From positions 27,281,053 through 27,345,052 of the forward strand of contig NC_089274.1 in NCBI RefSeq assembly GCF_963678975.1: a stretch of 64,000 nucleotides of DNA. Direction: 5' to 3'. The notes beneath the pieces are model-generated. The model was given only the letters and a program-made list of their open reading frames with translations, did not search any database and was not told the origin of the DNA. Each line of letters begins with the position of its first letter. Position 1 is the first letter of the stretch. A program made the position numbers and the translations under genes. The DNA is from Dysidea avara. Its lineage: Eukaryota > Porifera > Demospongiae > Dictyoceratida > Dysideidae. Of this stretch, positions 7,260 to 63,197 are shown piece after piece.

Positions 7260-8283
7260 CTATTCCGTAACCTTAAGTGGAAAAGATGTTGTAGGTCTAA
7301 TGTAGTCACCATCCTCTTTTTGCTCTACGATTTGGGTGGTATACCACTCTTGAGATTTCTGCTTAATGAAGTCTTTCACAGGTTTATTAACACTTAATTC
7401 TAAGGGCTGAGGTACTTCAATGCAGTTAGCTAGAACATACACAATGTCTAGTATATATGGATCATCCATCACACTAGAAAAGTGAAAGTACAGTACTTAA
7501 ACAAGGGCAATCCCCACTTTAGTCATGCTGGTTTATCGCTAATTAGCTACATTAAATTTGCATTTCAGATGATCTTGCTTCAATTGTTGGAGGAGTGTAA
7601 GTAATCCACTTGACAGAATAACTTGAAGATTGGTCTGTACATGAAGTTACTATCGTAGTGTAAATCTTTTTTGATTTGAAAGTACTGAGAGTATTAGCTA
7701 AGGAGATATAAAGCAAAATCAAATATGACATTGTGAAAAAAAGTGTGATTAAAATGTTGGGAAAAATTCCCCAGGTTTTGAGCCAGTGACCTCCACACCT
7801 ATGTACCCAAACCCTTACCACTCTGCCACTGTTGTCTATTGCTCACCTCAGTGAATTTATACCCTATAAACGAAAGTTCCAGTTTGGTACACTAGAATGA
7901 CAACTCGTAGATCTATCAGTGGAAATTCTAGAACATTCTATATGTGTTGTATTGAAGTGCTTAGAAAAGAATGTGTGCTCTATTAGAGTACTACAAATAG
8001 CCTATATCAAGTGTGTTGTGTGACCAAGTACAGCCAGTGTGGGCAGGTGACATACTCGTTTACGGAAGCAAAAATGCCATTTTCATGTATCCATAGCTTG
8101 ATAGTGCTTGAATGGTAATTAATCATTTCTGCTGTGGAAACTTCCACAGGGTAGGGCATCTCCCATGAGTCAAATCTGCCCAGCTATCTTTACGCCTTCA
8201 AAATTCATTTCTTTGTAAGTACATATAGCCAAGCAGTCTTCGATGATTCCTTTAGTAAAGTTCAAAGGCAAATTAAAAGTAGG
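7260..8283 (-). pseudogene. unidentified exon-like segments, probably a broken gene
   Basis: Three minus-strand blocks look coding but do not join. Block one (about 8283-8025) reads IIEDCLAICTYKEMNFEG and, after a one-base shift, DSWEMPYPVEVSTAEMINYH. Block two (about 7632-7551) follows a good acceptor and reads TNLQVILSSGLLTLLQQLKQ. Block three (7469-7260) follows tttcacttttctag and runs from MDDPYILDIVYVLANC to a stop. A tRNA-type SINE lies between blocks one and two, and a hAT MITE abuts block one at 8280. I do not recognise the protein. Block three could be the last exon of a live gene, but the phases I can find do not connect. Confidence 0.35.
7740..7840 (-). mobile_element. tRNA-derived SINE head
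   Basis: On the minus strand, TGGCAGAGTGGTAAGG (A-box-like, 7813-7828) is followed 29 bp later by GGCTCAAAACC (B-box-like, 7774-7784). This is the spacing of an RNA polymerase III tRNA promoter. Flanks do not fold as a tRNA, so I call a SINE and not a tRNA gene. Confidence 0.6.
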
Positions 8284-9099
8284 GCTGAGCGATACTACCG
8301 TTTTAGCAATATATTGCGATAGTTTGAAAGTATCGATATCGCGGTATTTTGTTATTAACTATCGTGATACCATACCTGTACATTACTGTCATTAAAAAAC
8401 CATTTGTTATGCAGTACTTGGCTAAGAATCCTTGTAACTGATAAAGTCCACCCATCTGGTTTCCCCTGCAGAGAGGTGTGAGCACCACATCAACCTCAAA
8501 GCATGTGTTACAATAACTGTTACTGTAAACAAGGATAATAGTGGCTAGTTTGGGTAGTGTCTAATCACTGGACTGGACTACTGGAATGGACTACTGGACT
8601 GACATTTTTTTTAAATTACACATTTTTAAGGATGGGGTTACTGCAGAGGAGGTTGGTCACTTGTCATCATTCATCTCGTGATCTCAAAGGAAGGGTTGAA
8701 CTAATTTAACCTTCACACTTCTTAATATTCTAAGGAAGGATTGCATATCCGTAACAGCGTCCCAGTGATATTACAAGCCTTCTCAGTACAATTTGCTGCT
8801 TTCCTAGCTGCTAAACAAACCTTAACACATAGAACAATGCTTGGTTGCATAATTTCGCATCATAGGAATAATTATGGCACGTGACCAGCCTCCTTTGGGG
8901 TTACTGTATATTTGGGTGACTTGTGACAACATTTCAGTACTGAGTAGTGACTAAAAAGTAGTTGTGATATGCCATATGGATTAAATTAAACATATTCTAT
9001 TTGCTGCTGGACAGTATCTACTCTACTGTATAGCAGATACTGACATGTAGGTATACCCAAAAATATTTCTCTCTTATAGGCACATGTGATTATTGTAAT

Positions 9100-9890
9100 T
9101 AAGACACACGATAGTGTGTCATGCGGCCCAAGAAGTCGGCGGGCCACACCGTGAGTATATTAACAGGAAGAAGAAAACGCAATTTTCACACCTATGTAGC
9201 TCTGTGATCCCTTATCCGATTGGAACCAAATTTGCTAGAGATGTGTCACCCAGTTAGGGGAGCCTACATACCAAATTTGAAGAAAATCACTCCAGCCATT
9301 TCCGAGATACTAGTGAACAAAATTTCGTTTTAATTTCTTCGTTTTTTCTTCATCATCTTTATTTCGCACACTTCGCAAAATTCGCCATACAACACGAATG
9401 CGTGCTTGGATTGGGCTGAAATTTGGCACACTTAAAGGGCTCATTAAGGCGGATCTCCGTACCAACTTTGGTAGGAATCCAATGAACATTCACGGAGTTA
9501 TGACCGATTATGTGCGTAAAATAAGGTTGAAGGTCTGTCACGCCTACAGGGTAAACCCCTTGGAGGAATCAGTTGAAAATTGATATGTAGATGGAGCAAC
9601 CATCGTAGGAGTGCCTTTTTGTGGTTTGAAAGGAATCAGGATAAAGACCATGGAGATAAGACACAAAACCCAACCTGTGTCAAAATTATGCGATCGATTT
9701 TTATGAATAAAAAAAACTATTAGTTTTCGTGTCTACCAGGCAAACCGCTTAGAGCAACGAGCTGACAATCAGTATGTAGCTGGAATAATCATCATAGAAA
9801 GTCCTTGCAGTAGTACAGAAGAATTGGAATACTAATCACTGAGTTATGATTCGAAAGGCAACTACATGCAGCAAATGTGAGATCAAGATA
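9100..9890. repeat. array-leader repeat, related copies at 56570-57650
   Basis: The order cacacgatagtgtgtcatgc, agtatattaacaggaagaag, then two segments ending in a version of cagggtaaaccccttggagg, recurs upstream of the second minisatellite at 57690. A fragment (9722-9815) also recurs in reverse complement at 16777-16860. Confidence 0.75.
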
Positions 9891-9959
9891 CTCTAATAGA
9901 ACAGTCACCCTAATAAAGCATTCAGCTGCATTTATAATTTACTCAGTTATATTACATTG

Positions 9960-11985
9960 CAAGTTATTCTGTAGGGAATTCAGCTACAAACAAGTCACCC
10001 TGTAGTCAGATCAGGTAGAAGAAGGTACCTAATAGAGAGTTCAGCTACAAAGAAGCCATCATGTAGAGAGTTCAGCTCAAATAAATCACCCTGTAGAGAA
10101 TTCATCTACAAACAAATTGCCCTGTAGAGAGATCAGCTAGAAGAAGTTACCTTGTAGAGGGTTCAGTTTAGGGCTGAGCGATACTGCCATTTTAGTATCA
10201 CGATCGATACTAAAGCCACTATTCACGATACTGAATAGTTCACAATACTTACAAATAAGTCAATCATAGCTGGTGCCACATAGTGTATTGCTCAGCATTC
10301 CTGCAGGAAGTCCTTACAGGTGATAGCAAACTACTATCATCCTTGTTTACAGTAACAGTTATTGTAACACATGCTTTGAGGTTGTTATGGTGTTCACACC
10401 TCTCTGCAGGGAAACCAGATGGGTGGACTTTATCATTTACAAGGATTCTTAGCCTAGTACTGCATAACAAATGGATTTTTAATGACAATAATGTACAGGC
10501 ATGGTATCACAATAGTTAATAACAAAATATTGCGATATCGATACTTTCAAAATATCACGATATATCGCTAGAACGGTAGTATCGCTCAGCCCTAGTTCAG
10601 TTACAAAGAAACAATCATGCAAAGAGTTTAGCTGCAAACAAATCATCCAGTAGAAAGTTCCGCTATGAACAAATCACACTGTAGAGAGTTCAGTTAGAAA
10701 CAAGTCATCTTGTAGAGAGACCAGCTAGAAGAAGTCACCTTGTAGAGAGTTCAGTTACAAAGAAACAATGGAGTTTAGTTGCAAACAAATCACCCAGTAG
10801 AAAGTTCTGCTATGAACAGATCACACTGTAGAGAGTTCAGTTAGAAACAAGTCATCTTGTAGATACATGTAGATCAGCTAGAAGAAGTCACTTTGTAGAG
10901 AGTTCAGCTACAAAGAAACCACCATGTAAGAGAGTTCAGCTGCAAACAAACCACCTGTATAGAGTTCAGCTAGGAACAAGTCACCCTGTGCAGAGATCAG
11001 CTGGAAACAAGTCATCCTGTAGAGAGTTCAGCTAGAAGAAGTGCATTGTAGAGAGTTCAGCTACAAAGAAACTACCATGTAGAAAGTTCAGCTGCAAACA
11101 AATCGCCCTGTAGAGAATTCAGCTACAAAAAAATCAGCTAGAAGAAGTTACCTTGTAGAGAGTTCAGCTACAAACAAATCACCCTATAGAGAGTTCAGCT
11201 AGAAACAAGTCACCCTGTAGAGAGATCAGCTAGAAACAAGCCACCCGTAGAGAGTTCAGCTAGAAGAAGTTACATTGTAGAGAGTTTAGCTACAAAGAAA
11301 CTACCATGTAGAGAGTTCAGCTGCAAACAAATCGCCCTGTAGAGAATTCAGCTACAAACAAATCACCCTGTAGAAAGATCAGTTAGAAGAAGTTACCTTG
11401 TAGAGAGTTCAGCTACAAACAAATCACCCTGTAGAGAGTTCAGCTAGAAACAAGTCACCCTGTAGAGAGATCAGCTAGAAACAAGCCACCCGTAGAGAGT
11501 TCAGCTAGAAGAAGTTACCTTGTAGAGAGTTCAGCTACAAACAAATCACCCTGTAGAGAGTTCAGCTACAAACAAGTCACCCTGTAGAGAGTTCAGCTAG
11601 AAGAAGTTACATTGTAGAGAGTTCAGCTACAAAGAAACTACCATGTAGAGAGTTCAGCTACAAACAAATTGCCCTGTAGAGAATTCAACTACAAACAAAT
11701 CACCCTGTAGAAAGATCAGCTAGAAACAAGCCACCCATAGAGAATTCAGCTAGAAGAAGTTACATTGTAGAGAGTTCAGCAGTTTAGCTGCAAACAAATC
11801 GCCCTGTAGAGAATTCAGCTACAAACAAATCATCCTGTAGAAAGATCAGCTAGAAGAAGTTACCTTGTAGAGAGTTCAGCTACAGACAAATCACCCTGTA
11901 GAGAGTTCAGCTACAAACAAGTCATCCGGTAGAGAGATCAGCTAGAAGGATTACCTTGAAGAGAAGTCAGCTACAAAGAAATCAC
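9960..11985. repeat. 31-bp minisatellite array
   Basis: Dozens of copies of a unit built on ctgtagagagttcagctaca plus a variable aaacaaatcaccc-like tail, period about 31 bp. Unit variants alternate (ttcagctac / atcagctag; acaaatcac / agaagttac), giving a higher-order pattern in 11040-11900. A MITE (10169-10594) interrupts it. No unique spacers. Confidence 0.92.
10169..10594. mobile_element. intact 426-bp hAT-like MITE
   Basis: Termini tagggctgagcgatactgcc and ggtagtatcgctcagcccta. The exact 8-bp target duplication gttcagtt (10161-10168 and 10595-10602) is cut from the minisatellite unit. It is the same family as the split element at 8280-12871. Confidence 0.93.
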
Positions 11986-12095
11986 CCTGCTTCATCTTTT
12001 CTTCTTCCTGTAGTAAAGAAAAAAATGATAGGTTAAAAAGCCCTAAAGCCAACCATAGGCCGGATTTGGGGTATACAAATACAAAAAGAAGTGAA

Positions 12096-12425
12096 ATCTA
12101 ATCCAAAACAGCCAAGCTGTAAAAAAAAGAGTGCGGCCCTGAGAAAGGCTATGGTGAAAAAAGATGTGAAATCCAAGGTGGCAGCCAAGAAATGGCTGTG
12201 ATGGTAGGTTAATGGTAAAAATTTTAATAACGGCAATTCAGGTGAATTTTGTGCCAAGACCAAACGGCACCAAATTCACCTGAATTGTTGTTATTAAAAT
12301 TTTTACCATTAACCTACCATCACAGCCATTTCTTGGTCGCCACCTTGGATTTCACATCTTTTTTCACCATAGCCTTTCTCAGGGCCGCACTCTTTTTTTA
12401 CAGCTTGGCTGTTTTGGATTAGATA
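12096..12425. repeat. near-perfect palindrome, two 160-bp arms
   Basis: Arms 12096-12255 and 12266-12425 are inverse copies with only a few differences, around a 10-bp loop. A transcript would fold into a roughly 150-bp hairpin. The single-arm version lies at 58385-58500 after the second minisatellite, and a decayed one at 12890-13130. Confidence 0.92.
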
Positions 12426-12871
12426 CAACTTTCTATAACATATATATGTATATTGTGAATTGGTGACTAGAGAGAAACATTTTTGGGTATACCAGTACAT
12501 CTACTATACAATAGAGTAGATACTGTCAAGCAGTGCATTTAACTGAACCCTTTTGACTACATTTTGTATTATATTCACCACTCAGTGCTGAAATGTTGTC
12601 ACAAGTCACCCAAATGTACAGTAACCCCACCCTTAAAAATGTGTAAAACCAAAAAAAGTCAGTACAGTAGTCCATTCCAGTATTCCAGTCCAGTAGTCCA
12701 GTCCAGTGATTAGACACTACCGCTAGTTTGCTATCACCTATAAGGATTTCCTTTAGGAATGCTGAGCAATACACTATGTGGCACCAGCTATGATTGACTT
12801 ATTTGTAAGTATCGTGAATAGTGGCTTTAGTATCGATCATGATACTAAAATGGCAGTATCGCTCAGCCCTA

Positions 12872-13361
12872 GTTAAAAGGTAGTGTCAAGGCCAACCATA
12901 GGCTGGATTTGGAACTTGCAATTACAAAAAGAAGTGATATCTAAAATCAAGAGTTCATAATATAAAGAGGGCCTCCCTCTCTATATTATGAACTCTTGCT
13001 AAAATTTATTAGCATTAACATCATTGCAGCCATTTCTTGGCCACCACTTTTCAGTGATTTCAGTTTTTTTTACCCAGACTTTTTAAGGCCTCACCTTTTT
13101 TCACAGCTTGTTTGTTTTTGTGCGGATTTTAAAAATTTCATAGCAACTTATTGGAAGCATGTAATACAGGTTACATTGAAGGCACTTTTGGCTTGCTTAT
13201 GTCTAAACAATACTGCTAATGCACCATGAAGGTATTGTGAGGTTAGTATCAAACCTTCATGATCCTTACTAATACTACCACCATACTATATGATAAAGCT
13301 TCAAGTGTATGTATTACAGTATCTGTTCTTATTCACATAAATTTTAACCTTGTAGTAAAAG
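12872..13361. other. intergenic; decayed palindrome-family sequence and 5' flank of the hydrolase gene
   Basis: 12890-13130 resembles the palindrome family (caaccataggctggatttgg, cagccatttcttgg). 13131-13361 precedes the hydrolase start. There is a possible 5'-UTR acceptor (ttaaccttgtag) ending at 13355. Confidence 0.45.
12948..12998. mobile_element. 51-bp mini-element with 7-bp TSD
   Basis: Ends are caagagttcataatata and tatattatgaactcttg, the terminus of the 457-bp MITE at 5969. The direct repeat ctaaaat flanks both sides (12941-12947 and 12999-13005). Almost the whole element is a palindrome. Confidence 0.85.
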
Positions 13362-15194
13362 ATGGCTACGGCGTCCGATCCACAACTAGACAACTCATTC
13401 TCAGAGTATTCCATTCAAACACTAGCCCAGCTGTACTTTGCGATAGATGAAGCTCCCCCAGTCAATCAGTTTTATACCAACTTTTCATGGAACGTGGTTG
13501 ACACTGTTGCAGTTGATGGAAATACAAAAGTAATTAAAATGGAGACAAAGGGCATGGCCGTTGTATCTTCTAAGTTTTTCAAACGAGGATACAGAGTTGT
13601 TGCAGAACGTGAATCTAACCACAAAGTTGTTTTGCTGTGTGAAGGAGAAAATAGTCGTGCAGGCAAGCAGAAAATAGAAGCATACTGGGGAGATATTCAA
13701 GGTGCTCTGCAACGTTCACTAGTGATTAAGAGTGCTATTCAAACTATTGAGCACAGAGAAATGGGTTACTATCAAGAGCCAACATCCGTTGTTGCTGGTT
13801 TTGATTCCATTCAAGGCCAAGCTAGCAGCGAGTTCTACCAGACCATTCATTATGGCACAATCAGAAAAAGGGGAAATACTGATAAAGTCTCAGAATTTTA
13901 CTTCAATGATGCAGATAAAATCCCAAATCTTCATGTAGGTGTTGCACAATGTGCAATTCCGTACCAAAAATTCTTAACCAAGGGGACACTACCTCGTCCA
14001 AAAGGCTTTGTCTCCAAGTTATTTGAAAATAATAAGAAAAAAATGATGCCAATGAGAGTCAATTACATTAATGAAATGGAAATGGATGAGTTTAGGAGGT
14101 CTCTAGCAAAGAATGTCAACGATTGTTACCTCAGTTACTTGCGATACTTGCATGGCAGTGTTGAAAATATGGCTGATGTTGTTTACAGTGAAGAAGACAG
14201 CATTGCCATTAAGAAAACACTTGTTGAAGATCTTTCTCGAAAATTTTACACAACACAGCCCGAACATATGAAAATCCTGCAGGATAAAATAGACACATTG
14301 ACTGACAATGAAAAAGAATATTTGGATGTGCTCAAGCAGTTTGAAGAAAAATTGTGTAACCCTCCTGAAAACCAAAATCAAGATGTTCTACTCTACATTC
14401 ATGGGTTTAACAACTCAGTTGAAGAGTGCCTCTTACGTGCATCTCAAATTGCCTGTGATATTGGCTTTGGTGGAAGATTGGCTGTGTTTAGCTGGCCCTC
14501 ACTTGAAAGTGCTGTTCGGTATTTCCAGGATAAAGATCAAATAGACCTAGCTGTTCGCAAATTTCTTGATTTTCTTGTAATGTTATGCCGCAGTGCAAGG
14601 AAGGTACACATAATTGCACACAGTGCTGCTAACTTACTGTTCACCAGGTCTGCTTTAGCTGCCAGTGCAATTCTAGCACAGTGCAAAGGTAAAATAGGTC
14701 AACTGATTTGTGCCCATGCTGATGTCAAGGTTGAGTTTTTCCTAGAAGTGTTCAAGGATTCTGATACGGTTGCAGGAATCGAGAGTATTGTGGATAACGT
14801 CACTGTCTACTACCATCAACGTGACAAAGCACTGTGGTGGGCTTCTGCCATATGTGGCATTGGAGACAGGATTGGTAGACAAGAGACGAGGCAACTTCCA
14901 AATGAAAAGAAACTAGAAAACATCAACATAGGAGAAATGTCCATTGCCAAAGAAACTTTCCTTTACTTTGTTGGTAGCATATCGTCCATCAAGCACAATG
15001 TTTATGCTGAAAATCCACTTGTTTTGGAAGACATGAGTGAAGTAATTAACAAAGGTTTTAAAGCTCATCAACGCAGTCATATCAATGTGGCTTGTTCTTG
15101 TTTTATTGTAAAAGCCCATGATGTCACCACTAAACCAGTCTGTCATCTGTGTGGTGAAAAGTATGAATATGTTCTTGACTCCTTTGTTCTGTAA
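13362..15194 (+). CDS. DUF900-type alpha/beta hydrolase, intronless
   Basis: A 610-aa protein in one exon. The hydrolase core lies at about residues 338-550: LLYIHGFNN (oxyanion loop, H347-G348), VHIIAHSAAN (nucleophile elbow, Ser421), an Asp at 454 in AHADVKVEFF and a His at 545 in SIKHNVYAENP, which together give a plausible triad. This is the layout of DUF900, a family best known from bacteria with unknown substrate. The elbow is AHSAA rather than the common GxSxG or AHSMG. The N-terminal 330 residues match nothing I know. The C-terminus has paired Cys (CSC, then CHLC), a possible metal knuckle. No signal peptide or membrane helix is apparent. The first ATG is used; it follows taaaag. A broken paralogue lies 5.8 kb downstream. 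The enzymatic role is inferred from motifs only. Confidence 0.85.
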   Translation: MATASDPQLDNSFSEYSIQTLAQLYFAIDEAPPVNQFYTNFSWNVVDTVAVDGNTKVIKMETKGMAVVSSKFFKRGYRVVAERESNHKVVLLCEGENSRAGKQKIEAYWGDIQGALQRSLVIKSAIQTIEHREMGYYQEPTSVVAGFDSIQGQASSEFYQTIHYGTIRKRGNTDKVSEFYFNDADKIPNLHVGVAQCAIPYQKFLTKGTLPRPKGFVSKLFENNKKKMMPMRVNYINEMEMDEFRRSLAKNVNDCYLSYLRYLHGSVENMADVVYSEEDSIAIKKTLVEDLSRKFYTTQPEHMKILQDKIDTLTDNEKEYLDVLKQFEEKLCNPPENQNQDVLLYIHGFNNSVEECLLRASQIACDIGFGGRLAVFSWPSLESAVRYFQDKDQIDLAVRKFLDFLVMLCRSARKVHIIAHSAANLLFTRSALAASAILAQCKGKIGQLICAHADVKVEFFLEVFKDSDTVAGIESIVDNVTVYYHQRDKALWWASAICGIGDRIGRQETRQLPNEKKLENINIGEMSIAKETFLYFVGSISSIKHNVYAENPLVLEDMSEVINKGFKAHQRSHINVACSCFIVKAHDVTTKPVCHLCGEKYEYVLDSFVL

Positions 15195-16014: not shown

Positions 16015-16776
16015 CTCTTTGAAAATTCCAAATGTTATTGTGTACTTGTCATTTATTCATGTATAACAGTATTTCTATAGTGCATCTTCATTTAAAATAT
16101 CACACATATCAATTGAAGGTTACATGATTACCATATTGTGCATTCAACCTAAGTTTTAATAAGTGAGTGCACGGCTATCTAAATTCCTACCCACTCAGGT
16201 AGTAACTGAACTTATAGGATCAGAGACACTCACTAGTTGGAGTGTCCAAGCTAATATTAAATTGACAACAATTCAAGTATATTATATGTGTATCTGAAAA
16301 AATACAGCCATGTAGCAATCAAATGCATGCATAAATCTATATAGAGGAGTAATAATTGCAAGCATTAATGTGACATCAGTGCTTGGAATCAGTAGCATTA
16401 TGCCTCCAGCATTAACCTTTAGTCTCAGTGATATATATATAGACCCGAGCCATTTAACACCATCTGGCACAACAGGTTTGTTTAAATAGTATTAGCTACT
16501 AAAGAAAGTTACCATTCATCAGCTATATCATTGTAGTACCTTTATAGTTTATATTATACGCTAATACACTTGCAGAAGTCTACGTTATTACTTCATCGTT
16601 ACATTTTCACCAGAGTGCCACACACTGACTGTGTCCCAGGGGAATTTGCCTGCACAAGGCTCAAGCACCTGAGTGGTACACAGGAATCTCAGAGCTGGTT
16701 CACTGGACAGCAGTAGCTATAGTGTAGTGTAGCACTAGTGTTGTGATGTAATCCCAGCCACTATTATAACATTCTT
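16015..16776. other. no gene recognised
   Basis: Between 16436 and 16560 the sequence caccatctggcacaacag plus tactaaagaaagt resembles 18410-18470. It may be an old local duplication. No gene can be supported. Confidence 0.35.
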
Positions 16777-16860
16777 CTGTACTACTGCAAGGCCTTTCTA
16801 TGAAGATTATTCCAGCTATACACCGATTTTCAGCTCATTGCTCTAAGTGGTTTGCCCATG
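16777..16860. repeat. fragment of the array-leader repeat, inverted
   Basis: Reverse complement of 9722-9815: shared anchors are gattattccagctatac and cattgctctaagtggtttg. Confidence 0.7.
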
Positions 16861-21889: not shown

Positions 21890-22429
21890 TTAAACATAAG
21901 TTCCTAATAACTTAGCTAGTAACACTTTATGTTTGAACACCTCAGTATGTACAAAGAATGGTTTATTGTTCACTTGAAAGTTAGCAAACCCAATCGACCC
22001 TTCATAAACACGAGCATCTCTTACATGAAATACATGTGTTTTTCTTCTTGAGAATAATGACAGTGTTTCTACAGTAACCATCTCACGTGTTGCATCATAA
22101 AACATTCTAGTAACATAAGACTTCAGGCACCAGTGACACATAGCAGTTGTACCCAGTCCAAATGTCATCAATAAACCACTCAGAGCTATCCTGGCAGCAA
22201 TAGGCACGTCAGTATTACCATACGCCACTAGTACTGGGGTACCCACTATCACTCCTACACTTGTAGCTATTGATACCACCTTCAGTGGTAGGATCGCCTT
22301 AGCGTATGGAGCCTCGTACACAAGTCTTCCTGCAGGATTCTTCTTGCTAGCAGCAGCAGCATATCCTCGCTGTAATGTTATTGGGCACCTTAGATATACA
22401 CATCTTATCCATCTACTGATCAAGATCAT
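21890..22429 (-). CDS. TMEM70: TMEM70 homologue, mitochondrial ATP synthase assembly
   Basis: A 179-aa protein in one exon. An Arg-rich start (MILISRWIRCVYLR) suits a mitochondrial presequence. GRLVYEAPYAKAILPLKVVS at about 34-53 and KSYVTRMFYDATRE at about 103-116 match the signature blocks of TMEM70, as does the C-terminal block PFFVHTEVFKHKVLLAKLLG. Two hydrophobic segments lie at about 51-70 and 77-102, the hairpin expected for this inner-membrane protein. In animals TMEM70 helps assemble the c-ring of ATP synthase. TMEM186 and TMEM223 share the superfamily but fit less well. It is head to head with TMEM220, 230 bp apart. Confidence 0.88.
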   Translation of the reverse strand: MILISRWIRCVYLRCPITLQRGYAAAASKKNPAGRLVYEAPYAKAILPLKVVSIATSVGVIVGTPVLVAYGNTDVPIAARIALSGLLMTFGLGTTAMCHWCLKSYVTRMFYDATREMVTVETLSLFSRRKTHVFHVRDARVYEGSIGFANFQVNNKPFFVHTEVFKHKVLLAKLLGTYV

Positions 22430-22659
22430 TGATAATATCTCTAGTTCGATTTATAAACTGCAGATAGTGGGGGAGCGCTAAATAGAGTAAATAACGCAGC
22501 ATTTGCTCTAAAAAGTTAGAATACTAATACGTCTAGCAGCTAAGCTGGGAGGTGAAGGTGAAGCCCAAGATGAAGCCAAAAGACACTGTTAAAGTGACGT
22601 GAGGATTGCAAACAAAGCCTTGTTTTTGTTAAATGTTTGTTTGTAGAGAAACCAGGCAG
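22430..22659. promoter_or_regulatory. probable bidirectional promoter, TMEM70 / TMEM220
   Basis: The 230 bp between the two start codons must hold both core promoters and 5' UTRs. A likely 3' splice site (gtttgtttgtag, ending 22645) suggests a 5'-UTR intron for TMEM220. No TATA box is evident. Confidence 0.5.
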
Positions 22660-29200: not shown

Positions 29201-32200
29201 ACTTCAATATTCTGTTAAACATGACAGCTACAGCTGTACATGTACATGCATACACCTGTACATGTACATACACATACACATAAACAAATGCATTGCATAT
29301 ACATATACATCCCTTGGAAAAAGGACACCCTGAAATGTGAACACCTTGATAATCAAGAGATTTGTCCATGATCCCTTTATGTATGTACATTGTATTCCTC
29401 AAATCAGATAAGAGTTCCTCTGTATATTTGCATATATACTCTTGTATGTAAAATAAAGACACACCCACATCCACAACAATCAGGTGTGGTTAGAAAGCAA
29501 AAGCTAACATTGAAAGCCACAATACACATCAACAACCAGTTGTGAGGTTTTCAATTATTCTAGAACAATTATATGACATAAGGTACTCCACCTGATGGTA
29601 ATATAATGTAAGGGAATTATTTTTTTTAGCTTTTCCTGGAATAAAGGTTTCCTGGAATGCCCAGAAAAGTCCATATTAGTTAATAGTGGTTAGAAGTGTG
29701 GAGCCATTTGATCACAGTATAAATAGCATGCAGTCACATTGCTGTGCATTTGCACAGGTGGTAGGAGGAATTGGGGTTGTGTATTAATGTTGAAATGGCA
29801 AATACTAAGAAACTAATACCAATGAAAACAGTGGTGTTTCTGTGAAATAGTAATTCTCAGAAACTCTCTAGGGCATATAAAAGCAGCTCACTGAAAAGTA
29901 AGTGATAAATTAGATAAGTGGCAGGAAAATAAATGCAGTTATTTTATTGTAGAGAGGAGGGTCGGGCTGTGAGGCTACAGGTTGGCCTTGGTCAGCAAAC
30001 AAAACGTGTGGTGTTTCTACATCACCGTTTGCCTACCAAGTCCAACCTTTAGGCTCATGGCTCAATGAAAGATTCCTACACTAGCAAATAGCACTTGATG
30101 TGTGAAGATCACTCTTCTGGTAAGAGCAGCAAAATAAAACGTGTTGTGTACAATGAAGTACACAACACGATGGTAAGTGGATGCAACTACATGTATACAC
30201 AAGATGAAACAAAAGTTCAAAAGTACCTTCAGCCAAATATTTGAAAAGATGATTATTATTTTGCATAGAGAACACATCACTACCAGCATGCACGTTGATC
30301 AGCGTTACACAATGGATACGCAAATTTGTATCAACAGAGATGAAGGCTGCAGCCGCACAGTCATCAGTTTAAGAAGCAAACATTCAACATGTATATGTAT
30401 GCAATTAAATTTTTTTTTTTTTATGAATCAAAAAAAAACAACTAAAACATAATCAGGATTATTAAGCTACGTCACATGCATCTGCAATAAACAGTGGTTA
30501 TAGTTTCCCTGTACATGTCAAATGAATAATATTAATATGAAAGCATACAGTATACAACATTGTGCAGTAAAAATAAATTCATACAATTCTGAAATAACAT
30601 ACTACAGTACTAGTACATAGAGCCTTTTAAAACAAGCACAATACCAGTGTTTTCCCACCAGGAAAGAGTGCTACAACTGATCTAATTAAAACCCAAACCA
30701 TCAACAGTACAAAACGATATGTACTCTAATACAGCACACAACGTGTGGGTACAAGATGTTGTTGCTCATCATTCACAATAACAAGATTACAAATAGACCA
30801 CAAATTACGTACATCCTCATACTTGTGTGCAAAGAATATTATAGTACCTTGAAAACATATTAGGTTACACCTTGTGGTTAACAAGCCATCAATGTATGAT
30901 AGAGGAGTGTGAAAGCTACACAAAACTTGCGTACGTACGTACACACACACACACACGCGCACGCACGCACGCGCACACACAACAGACACTACACATACCA
31001 TACATGCATTACTAACTTGTACAAGTTCAGCTTCTTCAGTTGCTAGCAGGTCAACAGCAGCAGACAGGTGGGCAAGGTTCTTCAACACCTCTTCTTTAAG
31101 ACCAACTCCACACGCCCATCCTTCAAGCATGTTCAAATGTGCCCGCACAATTGGCCCACTATGACTGGCCACAAAATGCTGATCCTTAATCATCTCCATG
31201 AGGGAGCTCAGTAATGAGCTGTCTATGAAGTAGAAGACATTGGAGTAGAACTGTGATATGATGCTGTTGTTGACCCAGTGGTCATTGAGTAGGTCAAGGA
31301 TTGACTGTAAGAGGTCGATGACTATTTCCATCACCCAACCACATGACTCTCTGTTACCACCACTACTGGAGGATAGGTCATCATCCAGTATTGCCAGTAT
31401 TGTCTTGTAGACAATCTATTTGGAAATCATAATGTAACTACCATACAGTATGTGTGTGTGTGTGCTGTCAGTGAATACTGTGCAATGTGTGTGCATGCAA
31501 ATTTATTGTGCATAGCATTGAATTCTCTATTGTTTACTCTTGAGTAGTATGTATGCATATATGCACAGATTTACATACATAATTATGTAAGCGCATATGC
31601 AGTAATCACAGATGTACAGTGTAATACATACAAGGGCACAGGTTGTACACTGAGAGACACTTACCTTCCCCACTGGAAAAAAACTCTGCTGGAAAGCATA
31701 AGCAATAGAGTTGCTTAGCACTGTCAGAGAATCTTGAATGCTCTGGTCTTGTAAATCTTCACAGCAACACACATTTAATACCTTATACTATCTAATACAC
31801 ACACTCACCAAGCCGTATGGATAACTTGCGAATATGATGGTAGAGTTCATTAGTGTTGGCTATCCAGTACACTACTGGTTGTAGCATGGCCAGTGTTTTA
31901 TCCATAACAGGTATTGCTTTCTCCATTCTACAAGGTGAATATGACATGTATGGTAAGCATGCAGTTATTGTGTGTGTGTGTGCGTGTGTGTGTGTGTGTG
32001 CGCGCGCACGCGCAGCACACTACAAGTCTACACAAGTAGTGTTACGTACATTTCTACATCAGGATCCCAATCACTGAGGTGCTTAGCAGTATTCTACAAA
32101 GACACAACATTCACAAAGTGTCACAAATCATCTCATACAGATACATACCCAAATCACTTGTTGAATTTTATCACCAGTCTTCTGTATCACATTCACACAT

Positions 32201-35200
32201 AATTCTCTGCTGTGATGCTTTGTCGCATAATGAAGTGCTGATGCAATCACATATGCAGACAACAGTTTACATTCAGTGTCTCTATCATCAAGTTTACTGA
32301 TCACACTATTGAGCAAAGTGTCTTGATGATGTGTGGCAAATGGGATACAAAGGCCAGCTGGCACTACACTGTAGGTAACTCCGTTTGTAGGTGATGTGAT
32401 TGATTGCTCTGTGCTCGAGAACACCGACCATCTATAGGAATCACTTGGCATTGTGGGGTTGATATACATGAACAAATGCTGTTGTTTTCCCACTTCAATT
32501 ATGTCACCGCTACATAACTCATACGCTCTGCACTGGGACACAAGGAATCCATTAAGAGTGATCTCCAAATTTGAGCCATTCTCTACAAACAATTCGGCAC
32601 CATACGAACCGTCAGTATTCCGATGACAGTGCAACTGGAAAACATGCGTTGTGGAGAGATCAAGTTCTTTGGTGAAGTTGAGATCTAGTTTGGATGAATC
32701 ATTTTCTGTTGTCAATTTTACACAAAGCACTCCTGGGCCAAAAGGGTTCAGCAAGCCACTGCCATTCAAGTGAGGCTTTAGGTTGATCAAGTATGGGATC
32801 TCCTTTGGACATGATACATCAGAATAGTATGATGACCTTGCATCTCCGTGACTAGAAACAAGTGTAGCTTGTGATACTTGCCTAGAGCTTTCTGCTGACT
32901 CTACGTAGGAGCCATTACGGTATGTAGTCATCCCTCGATGCATCAACATGTCATCTAAATCATCCACACTGGAACCATCAGAGAGATAATTCTCACTGTC
33001 GCCTGAAGTTCTTTTACTAGAACAAGAAGGACTAGTATAGTACATGTCTCGGATTAATCGTAATTCAAACCGGCGATCATATCCAGAAGGTGGTGCCCAG
33101 TATTGCTCGACAGTTATGGGACACTCGTTGTCACGCAAAACTCTCATGTGGTAAACACTGAAGCCTCCTTCATTGATTGAACCTGAATTATTGAAGCTAG
33201 TGTTAAGCCTGTTGTCATCCACAGTAGCTACATCTTCATACTTCCCTACCACATCACAAAGACAGTACTCGCCAACATTGCTGGGAGAAATATCGTATCT
33301 TTCTAATGCTTCTTTTATTACCTCTACTGTAGTGGACAACTCTGAGATTAGGACACTCTTGTAAATTGAGGCCTTCCCTAAAGATGCTCCATATACTTGA
33401 AGTAGTTTAGCTTCCACAAATTCTTTGTGAGCTAGTACTGGTGACAACAAACCTTTGACAGACGAAACTGTAGATTCTTCACTGTCCATGTTTCCATGAC
33501 TTTGCCGTTTCTTTTTAGCCTTGACACTGCGGCTCAAGTTTCCAACAAAAGAATTCATTATAGATATTGGACGATCCTTTAATTTAAGGGATCTCTGATG
33601 AAATCCTGGACTTTCAGTGCCATCAAAAGATCGTGAGTAACTGTGTATAGGGGTAGCAGCACTGGTGCTCTTGGAACGTCTGCTGTGTTTTGGGCTACCA
33701 CCCTGCTTGTAGTCCTTGAATTTGGACTTGGTGTTGAAAGAGCTGTTTAAAAAGTCACCACTATCTGTGTAGTGTTGGTAAGACATACGCTTCGGTATAA
33801 CTGGGGAAGCTGGAGTTCTAAACCCAGTGCACTTGAATGTGAAGCGTGGTGGAAATGGTGACTTGAGTGAGTCAAGGGCAATCTGAAGTGGTGTCTCATG
33901 TAGCTCCAACTCTCTTTCAACTACAAAACAGTAACAATACAATACAACTATAACTCACACACTGTCCACATATGTACAACATGCACACTACATGCATGAA
34001 CGTACGCACACATGCATACTCACTCACTACAGTAATACACATAAATTACCACTATATCAATGGCAGAATAATGCATAGGTATATGCTTTCCCCAAATATT
34101 GACACACTGTTTATAAACAATTACAATCAAGTCGCGTTCCATTAAACAGTGGTTTCTCCATAATTTATCCCAATGGTCACAAACCATGTACTTGTATGTA
34201 CCGTGTGTGCACAAATATCTTTATAAAAGGAATGCAAAAATTTCACACAACACAAAATAATTTGACACAGTTTATAAATTTGCAACACTTATCCATTGCT
34301 AGCATGTGTACACATGAAACCAATAACATAATCAGTCATAAAACATCTTATGGTCTGAATTGGTGTAGAAAGTGAAGCTGTCTATTATGAAATGCCAATT
34401 CATCCTGCATATACATGTAGAATATTTAATAATCAAATATGTCATGTTCAATAGCCAGGGACCACATATACGCACACACATACAGAGACTGACGCTTCAA
34501 TGATCAACTATGTTAATAGTCCAATGGTTTATGTGATATGGTGATTTGTATCTAGTCATGTTATCCAATATTCATTTAGCTAGTGCCACCGTCATGTTGT
34601 AGTGAACACTAATAAGTCCTTTGATCACAAGTAATACGTGGTGTGCAATGAAGTGGGACATACAAAGTCAGAGAGAAATGTGTTAGAAGCAGTAAAGGTA
34701 TGAATGTTGTACTACAAAGAAGAGCTGTCATTTAGCATGTGCTATGTGTAGCATCCTTTCACTGTATGTACATGTACAGTATGTATACATGCATGTACTG
34801 TACATCTGTGAATTGGCCCATTGGTACACACACGCACAACACTCACACACAACAAGCTGCTGCATTTTCAGATACAGTTTAACACTACTGCATTTATAAA
34901 AATACATTTTTAGATGCTTGAGGTAAGGACGGTACACCTCAAATTCTATCACACAGACTTTACCATATAGTAGAGACCACAGATAACTGATCTACAGTGC
35001 ACCAAGTATGTAATCACACTAATAAGCACAATGAATATTGTTATTTTATTATTACACATGATGCCAGTATTTGTGTAGGTCTACAATCCTCCCCCAACCA
35101 CCAACACCATCACCAGCCAGCTAGTAATAAGTGCAACACTTTGGAATGTGTACAGTTTAGATATGTAGACACATGCAAGGGTCAGTCATGACAAAATCCA

Positions 35201-49933: not shown

Positions 49934-63197
<13,264 letters not shown>

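Follow-up and report, generated by a model that had tools for sequence, protein, structure and literature searches.

The window analysed here is a 64,000-nucleotide stretch of the genome of the sponge Dysidea avara (positions 27,281,053 to 27,345,052 of NC_089274.1), part of contig 3 of a 550.8-Mb assembly that we searched for copies of every layer of a transposon nest. Animal genomes commonly contain such transposon nests. The stack of insertions occupies 8272-12879 plus the right flank, and an initial annotation had described it as three hAT-like layers, each with its own 8-bp target duplication: a miniature inverted-repeat transposable element (MITE) split by a 4.17-kb element, which in turn holds a minisatellite split by a second copy of the MITE. 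The nest is genuine and its MITEs are hAT-like, but it is deeper and more mixed than first described, and the middle element is not hAT-like. The insert that separates the halves of the outer MITE (8553-12721) itself contains both a 254-bp element (8644-8897) and a Helitron-like element (9099-12423), which takes the nest beyond three layers. Each similarity search of the assembly scored the best 40 of 936 to 2,497 candidates; family sizes are lower bounds and copy samples are biased toward the window copy, except for counts of exact patterns. From left to right the nest reads as follows.

8272-8279, no strand: left target duplication of the outer MITE, ATTAAAAG, matching the right copy at 7/8
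8280-8552, plus strand: outer hAT-type MITE (favoured as the older), left part, including a single copy of GCTAGTTTG, the target used later
8544-8552, no strand: 9-bp target duplication, left copy, GCTAGTTTG
8553-9098, plus strand: foldback-type element, left arm, with a 13-bp tandem motif near the tip
8644-8897, plus strand: 254-bp inverted-repeat element in the left foldback arm, ends CAGAGGAGGTTGGTCAC and CAAAGGAGGCTGGTCAC
9099-12423, plus strand: Helitron-like element, non-autonomous, inserted without duplication between A (9098) and T (12424)
9103-9120, plus strand: 5' terminal hairpin, GACACAC-GATA-GTGTGTC
9969-10168, plus strand: 31-bp minisatellite, first part
10161-10168, no strand: left target duplication of the inner MITE, GTTCAGTT
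10169-10594, minus strand: inner hAT-type MITE (favoured as the younger), within the minisatellite
10595-10602, no strand: right target duplication of the inner MITE, GTTCAGTT
10603-11989, plus strand: 31-bp minisatellite, second part
12122-12399, plus strand: palindrome with 134-bp arms near the Helitron-like 3' end
12400-12412, plus strand: 3' hairpin, ACAGC-TTG-GCTGT
12413-12423, after the 3' hairpin: last 11 bases of the Helitron-like element, TTTGGATTAGA
12424-12721, plus strand: foldback-type element, right arm
12722-12730, no strand: 9-bp target duplication, right copy, GCTAGTTTG
12731-12871, plus strand: outer hAT-type MITE, right part
12872-12879, no strand: right target duplication of the outer MITE, GTTAAAAG
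12880-13124, plus strand: decayed Helitron-like 3' part, probable target of the outer MITE

The outer and inner elements are two copies of one hAT-type MITE, 90% identical when the outer halves are joined. Ends of the outer copy lie at 8280 (TAGGGCTGAGCG) and 12871 (CGCTCAGCCCTA), between flanks that agree at 7/8 positions (ATTAAAAG / GTTAAAAG); the inner copy is inverted relative to it and has flanks alike at 8/8 (GTTCAGTT / GTTCAGTT). Among 200,000 random 8-mer pairs from the window, 8/8 matches arose at a rate of 8.5e-5 and matches of at least 7/8 at 7e-4. Both splits reported earlier, that of the first MITE by the 4.17-kb element and that of the minisatellite by the second MITE copy, are borne out by these ends and flanks.

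Members of the MITE family end in TAGGGCTGAGCGATAC, and the exact left end occurs 339 times in the genome (reversed control pattern, 0). We examined two sets of 20 loci with these ends, set 1 taken from the best matches to the outer copy's left half and set 2 picked by the exact left end. Set 1 had an 8-bp duplication at 8/8 in 18 loci and at 7/8 in two. Set 2 had 15 at 8/8, two at 7/8 (L143 and L144, with the same flanks and probably one duplicated locus), one with none, and two whose right end was not in the stretch. Over both sets the duplication was 8/8 in 33/40 loci and 7/8 in 4/40, with none in one and no right end in two. The left flanks followed the pattern nTnnnnAn, with T at position 2 in 29/38 and A at position 7 in 30/38, a count that includes L133 (without a matching right flank) and the twins L143/L144. 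Hermes-like hAT elements share the 8-bp duplication nTnnnnAn, as given in the available part of their description (PMC2803484); unlike for those elements, no autonomous partner of the window family was found near the searched ends. Assignment of the MITE family to hAT is thus supported by the 8-bp duplication together with the nTnnnnAn target.

At both edges of the 4.17-kb insert stands GCTAGTTT, which had been taken as an 8-bp target duplication. The true duplication is 9 bp, GCTAGTTTG, a reading that leaves identical 28-base ends on both sides; the 8-bp reading was rejected, as it leaves the ends unequal and disagrees with the family. Uninterrupted MITE copies carry GCTAGTTTG once, and GTGGCTAGTTTGCTATC, or a variant of it differing in one base, stands at the insertion point in 20/20 other MITE copies, all of them uninterrupted. 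Because those copies read GTGGCTAGTTTGCTATC once, the filled site in the outer MITE holds a 9-bp duplication, and the joined MITE copy proposed earlier (8280-8551 plus 12722-12871) counts 8 bp twice. The inner window MITE lacks four bases at the point where the middle element entered the outer one.

The right arm of the middle element aligns inverted to the left arm with indels, forming long terminal inverted repeats, and both arms are internally repetitive, with 13-bp tandem motifs. Its ends are GGTAGTGTCTAATCACTGG, with GGTAGTGTCTAATC in both arms, and the exact 25-base ends occur 107 times in the genome (control pattern, 0). In the stretches examined, 33 family members had both ends, shared-flank loci L124-L127 being counted singly. 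The duplication was clear, with at most one mismatch, in 22, weak in three (L043 and L123 7/10, L128 7/9) and absent in eight. Twelve clear cases were 9 bp (5 perfect, 7 with one mismatch), ten were 10 bp (7 perfect, 3 with one mismatch), and none of the 22 was 8 bp. Given these 9-10 bp duplications and the long, internally repetitive inverted arms, the 4.17-kb element fits a Mutator/foldback type; target duplications of Mutator-like elements (MULEs) are put at 8-11 bp in the available part of the source, a range that includes those seen here (PMC6446971). Its closest counterpart in anatomy is Tm1, a Mutator/Foldback element of root-knot nematodes which, in the portion of its description available (PMC3169594), has foldback arms of variable length with 13-15 bp tandem motifs, MITE-like members and duplications of 8-10 bp, mostly 9, as in the window family. 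Tm1 tips are asymmetric and 7 bp long, in contrast to GGTAGTGTCTAATC in both arms here; the likeness noted is one of structure, and no transposase-bearing member was found in the window family. Six foldback stretches checked for reading frames (one, L121, holding two foldback elements) had no frame above 110 aa except one that ran through masked bases. At L121 a gap of 49 bp separates the two elements, and each has a 9-bp duplication of its own (8/9). Four other copies (L124, L125, L126 and L127) have the same flanks, and the foldback element is therefore also carried within a larger repeat.

The left foldback arm is interrupted by the 254-bp inverted-repeat element, with GGGTTACTG repeated on either side (8635-8643 and 8898-8906). 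This element has many relatives in the genome, flanked by repeats of 8 bp, 9 bp or none depending on the locus. In L030/L059, a further foldback copy whose left arm is 96% identical, it sits at the same site, and for that reason it most likely arrived inside the foldback element as cargo.

Also in the left arm lies the 3.3-kb Helitron-like element. Its site is uninterrupted, TTGTRATACAAC, in 6/6 foldback copies inspected (L030, L031, L032, L039, L049 and L058). The 5' end reads A|TCAAGACACACG (A|TC) in 20/20 other copies of the family, and the 3' end reads GGATTAGA|T in 12/12 genuine 3' ends, 9/12 of which continue TAC; 19 loci had been considered for the 3' end, and seven that read the inner palindrome arm were set aside. 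With A before the 5' ends and T after the 3' ends across copies, the element lands between A and T without duplication, and a short duplication that we had considered for this module was dropped, since copies show A|TC...GA|T. Searching the genome for the exact 31-base 5' end gave 6,345 occurrences (control pattern, 0); the pattern includes the leading A and so is no test of it. Hairpins as good as those of the window copy were found in 1/200 shuffles for the 5' end and 2/200 for the 3' end, the latter hairpin lying 11 nt from the end. Near the two ends is an inverted match, GTGCGGCCC / GGGCCGCAC, of 8-9 bp in 3/3 copies looked at, against 11-15 bp in the published Helitron2/Helentron descriptions as far as these were available, and the other arm of the palindrome appears as a second, inverted match in all 40 scored 3' matches. 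From its sequence, the element has the anatomy of a rolling-circle element.

The minisatellite belongs to this Helitron-like element, not to the 4.17-kb element itself. Removing the inner MITE and one GTTCAGTT restores the minisatellite unit, with 52/60 matches at 8 bp and 37-42/60 for alternative duplications of 5-7 and 9-11 bp. MITEs in similar minisatellites elsewhere have other duplications (GTACAGGG at L016, GTAGAGAG at L112 and L113, GTTTGTAG at L114), so the insertion of the inner MITE was an event of its own. The Helitron-like family as a whole spreads its minisatellite through the genome in thousands of copies.

Beneath all of these there is probably an older layer. To the right of the outer MITE, the flank at 12880-13124 can be aligned with the 3' regions of Helitron-like elements, and the left flank is in register with one of three targets, at a score reached by 0.8% of shuffles. 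Judged by these alignments, the decayed 3' end of a Helitron-like element was probably the target of the outer MITE; the remnant is likely on the right of the MITE and possible on its left.

Nesting by itself is no proof of order, because an inner element can ride in as cargo, as the 254-bp element illustrates. We therefore compared the two MITE copies with their family consensus. Using 18 of the 20 copies of set 2 (including L133, which has no duplication, and the twins L143/L144), the outer copy differed at 17/414 positions and the inner at 8/426 (one-sided p = 0.046). With set 1, which is biased toward the outer copy by its choice from matches to the outer left half, the counts were 17 and 10 substitutions (p = 0.11). 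Distances in set 2 formed two groups, one young (0.014-0.024, 8 copies) and one older (0.042-0.117, 10 copies); the inner MITE (0.019) is within the young group and the outer (0.042) at the edge of the older. On this measure the outer copy is favoured as the older of the two and the inner as the younger, with modest statistics. The earlier proposal that the MITE family was active both before and after the larger element moved is accordingly favoured by divergence but not proven by the nesting on which it was based, and the comparison of the two copies agrees with two periods of activity.

In our view the nest was very probably built by transposons of four kinds, none of them autonomous here, that inserted separately and in the following order. 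An old Helitron-like 3' remnant would already have been in place when a hAT transposase inserted the outer MITE there with an 8-bp duplication. A Mutator-type transposase would then have inserted the long-armed foldback element, already loaded with the 254-bp element, into the outer MITE, duplicating 9 bp. Rolling-circle transfer would next have placed the minisatellite-bearing Helitron-like element between A and T of the left foldback arm. Finally, the same hAT MITE family, in a more recent burst, would have supplied a copy that entered the minisatellite and duplicated 8 bp there. Sequence comparison shows the boundaries, where duplications exist and where they are lacking, the unbroken targets and the repeated families to which the layers belong; the enzymes that moved the elements and the left side of the oldest remnant are inferred, and so is the point that the last two steps would have taken place at this locus rather than in a parent copy.

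That final point is where the chief alternative differs: the foldback element could have been carrying both the Helitron-like element and the inner MITE when it entered the outer MITE, in which case both MITE copies could predate the move. Cargo does travel, as the 254-bp element at the same site in L030/L059 attests, and in a second foldback copy (L111, 1018-3168, reverse complement) a Helitron-like element interrupts exactly the same A^T as in the window. Yet the L111 copy belongs to a different clade: it was 68% identical to the window copy and 84-87% to two members of its own clade, which had support of 1.0 in a tree built from about 430 bases of 9 copies. The tree rejects shared descent of the two insertions, which were most likely independent, and A^TAC at this twice-hit site agrees with the preference at other Helitron-like 3' flanks. 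Moreover, in L030/L059, the closest foldback relative found, the Helitron-like site is uninterrupted; among the best 40 of 1,282 candidates the foldback/Helitron-like junction was spanned by L111 and the window only; and among the best 40 of 1,954 candidates two besides the window spanned the inner MITE junction, both separate insertions with a different duplication (GTAGAGAG). We consider the arrival of a fully loaded element improbable. A candidate sharer of the right junction, C8:24460064 (L091), was rejected because it is a copy without foldback arms. The three hAT-like layers with which the work began have still less to commend them and scarcely merit credence: an 8-bp duplication holds for both MITE copies and GCTAGTTT does stand at both edges of the middle element, but the middle family duplicates 9-10 bp in 22/22 clear cases and the minisatellite is accounted for by the inserted Helitron-like element. 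The preferred history remains one of separate insertions in the order given.

Several observations weigh against that history or against the assignments within it. Left-flank support for the oldest layer is modest, its score being reached by 0.8%, 5.7% and 59% of shuffles for the three targets. Eight of the 33 foldback members have no duplication (L032, L038, L056, L124-L127 and L130). No layer of the nest could be tied to an autonomous partner in searches by distance. Domain searches of the genome scored the best 150 of 1,875 candidates for hAT, the best 150 of 410 for MULE and the best 150 of 230 for Helitron Rep. On contigs 1-3, 0/58 hAT domains lay within 10 kb of 99 MITE ends, and none of 150 MULE hits came within 15 kb of any of the 100 foldback ends listed (of 107), with 0.8 expected by chance. 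Four pairs of Rep domain and Helitron-like end fell within 15 kb of each other, compared with 0.6 expected, two of them at one end. The ends of this family were not found in two stretches of 9-10 kb surrounding Helitron Rep domains, where the best matches to them had 6 errors. The Rep domains near Helitron-like ends, noted for proximity only, are at C6:25065668, C11:17988994, C11:17993102 and C3:35237666. The window copy of the Helitron-like element starts with TT, not TC. Its family ends in GGATTAGA, not in the CTRR of canonical Helitrons, and the T-rich or TT target of Helentrons is replaced by A^T, followed by AC in 9/12. Both the CTRR end and the TT site were looked for and found to be absent, which is why we call the element Helitron-like rather than a Helitron or Helentron.

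The lack of MULE domains near foldback ends also bears on what moved the 4.17-kb element. Another superfamily with long duplications, for instance Merlin or a P-type foldback such as Galileo, could have supplied the transposase in place of Mutator. Foldback structure is common to unrelated transposases, according to the part of the Tm1 account available (PMC3169594). Against this, duplications of 9-10 bp combined with tandem-motif arms agree with Mutator/foldback elements, and MULE domains are plentiful in the genome. We regard another superfamily as unlikely, and retain a Mutator-type transposase as the probable agent.

With canonical Helitrons (Helitron1), as described in the available parts of PMC4067079 and PMC5148889, the Helitron-like family shares the 5' TC, insertion between A and T, the absence of a duplication and a 3' hairpin 11 nt from the end, where a hairpin 10-12 nt from the 3' end is the usual criterion. 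It differs from them in its 3' end and in having an extra 5' hairpin. Cg_HINE of the Pacific oyster, a Helentron-type element, is likewise non-autonomous and numerous, makes no duplication and has central tandem repeats and a 3' hairpin; in the accessible part of its description (PMC7492417) its preferred target is oligo-T, its subterminal repeats are normally 11-12 bp and its monomers mostly 140-180 bp, as against an A^T site, an 8-9 bp subterminal match and a 31-bp monomer here. Judged by title or the opening of the abstract, none of the papers that a literature search brought up dealt with sponge Helitrons, which does not show that no such paper exists. Tentatively, and with rather less than even confidence, we suggest that these elements form an undescribed Helitron-like group, combining two Helitron1 traits, the 5' TC and the A^T site, with the hairpins at both ends of Helitron2, a GGATTAGA end behind a palindrome with 134-bp arms, a 31-bp minisatellite, more than 6,000 copies and a liking for A^TAC strong enough for one foldback nucleotide to be hit twice. 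A path linking mobile elements with tandem repeats has been described in oysters (in the available part of PMC7492417) and flies, and would here reach a sponge.

Targets of most layers are repeated elsewhere in the genome, and their uninterrupted copies act as empty sites; boundaries, and duplications or the absence of them, could thus be read within one genome, without a second. The 254-bp cargo element illustrates how nesting order alone can mislead. The useful results are the corrected middle layer and the abundant Helitron-like family; the rest is a mostly ordinary nest.

Elsewhere in the window, a second Helitron-like copy, of a different clade, lies at 56566-58507. It carries a minisatellite of its own, and toward its 3' end 176 bp are duplicated in tandem. 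The 5' hairpin of this older copy, read from 56884, was reached by 20/200 shuffles, and at 56566 there is part of another 5' start. An 86-bp fragment at 16771-16856 is 91% identical, inverted, to 9739-9824 of the Helitron-like element. Adjoining the nest, a single open frame of 611 codons (13359-15194) encodes a DUF900 alpha/beta hydrolase domain. On the minus strand are a TMEM70/TMEM186/TMEM223 family gene (21890-22450) and open frames with Ras-association (RA) and DIL domains (30726-33954), presumably an afadin-like gene. Long CA/TG arrays occupy 52197-52539, with a regular 54-bp higher-order unit, and 62433-62728.

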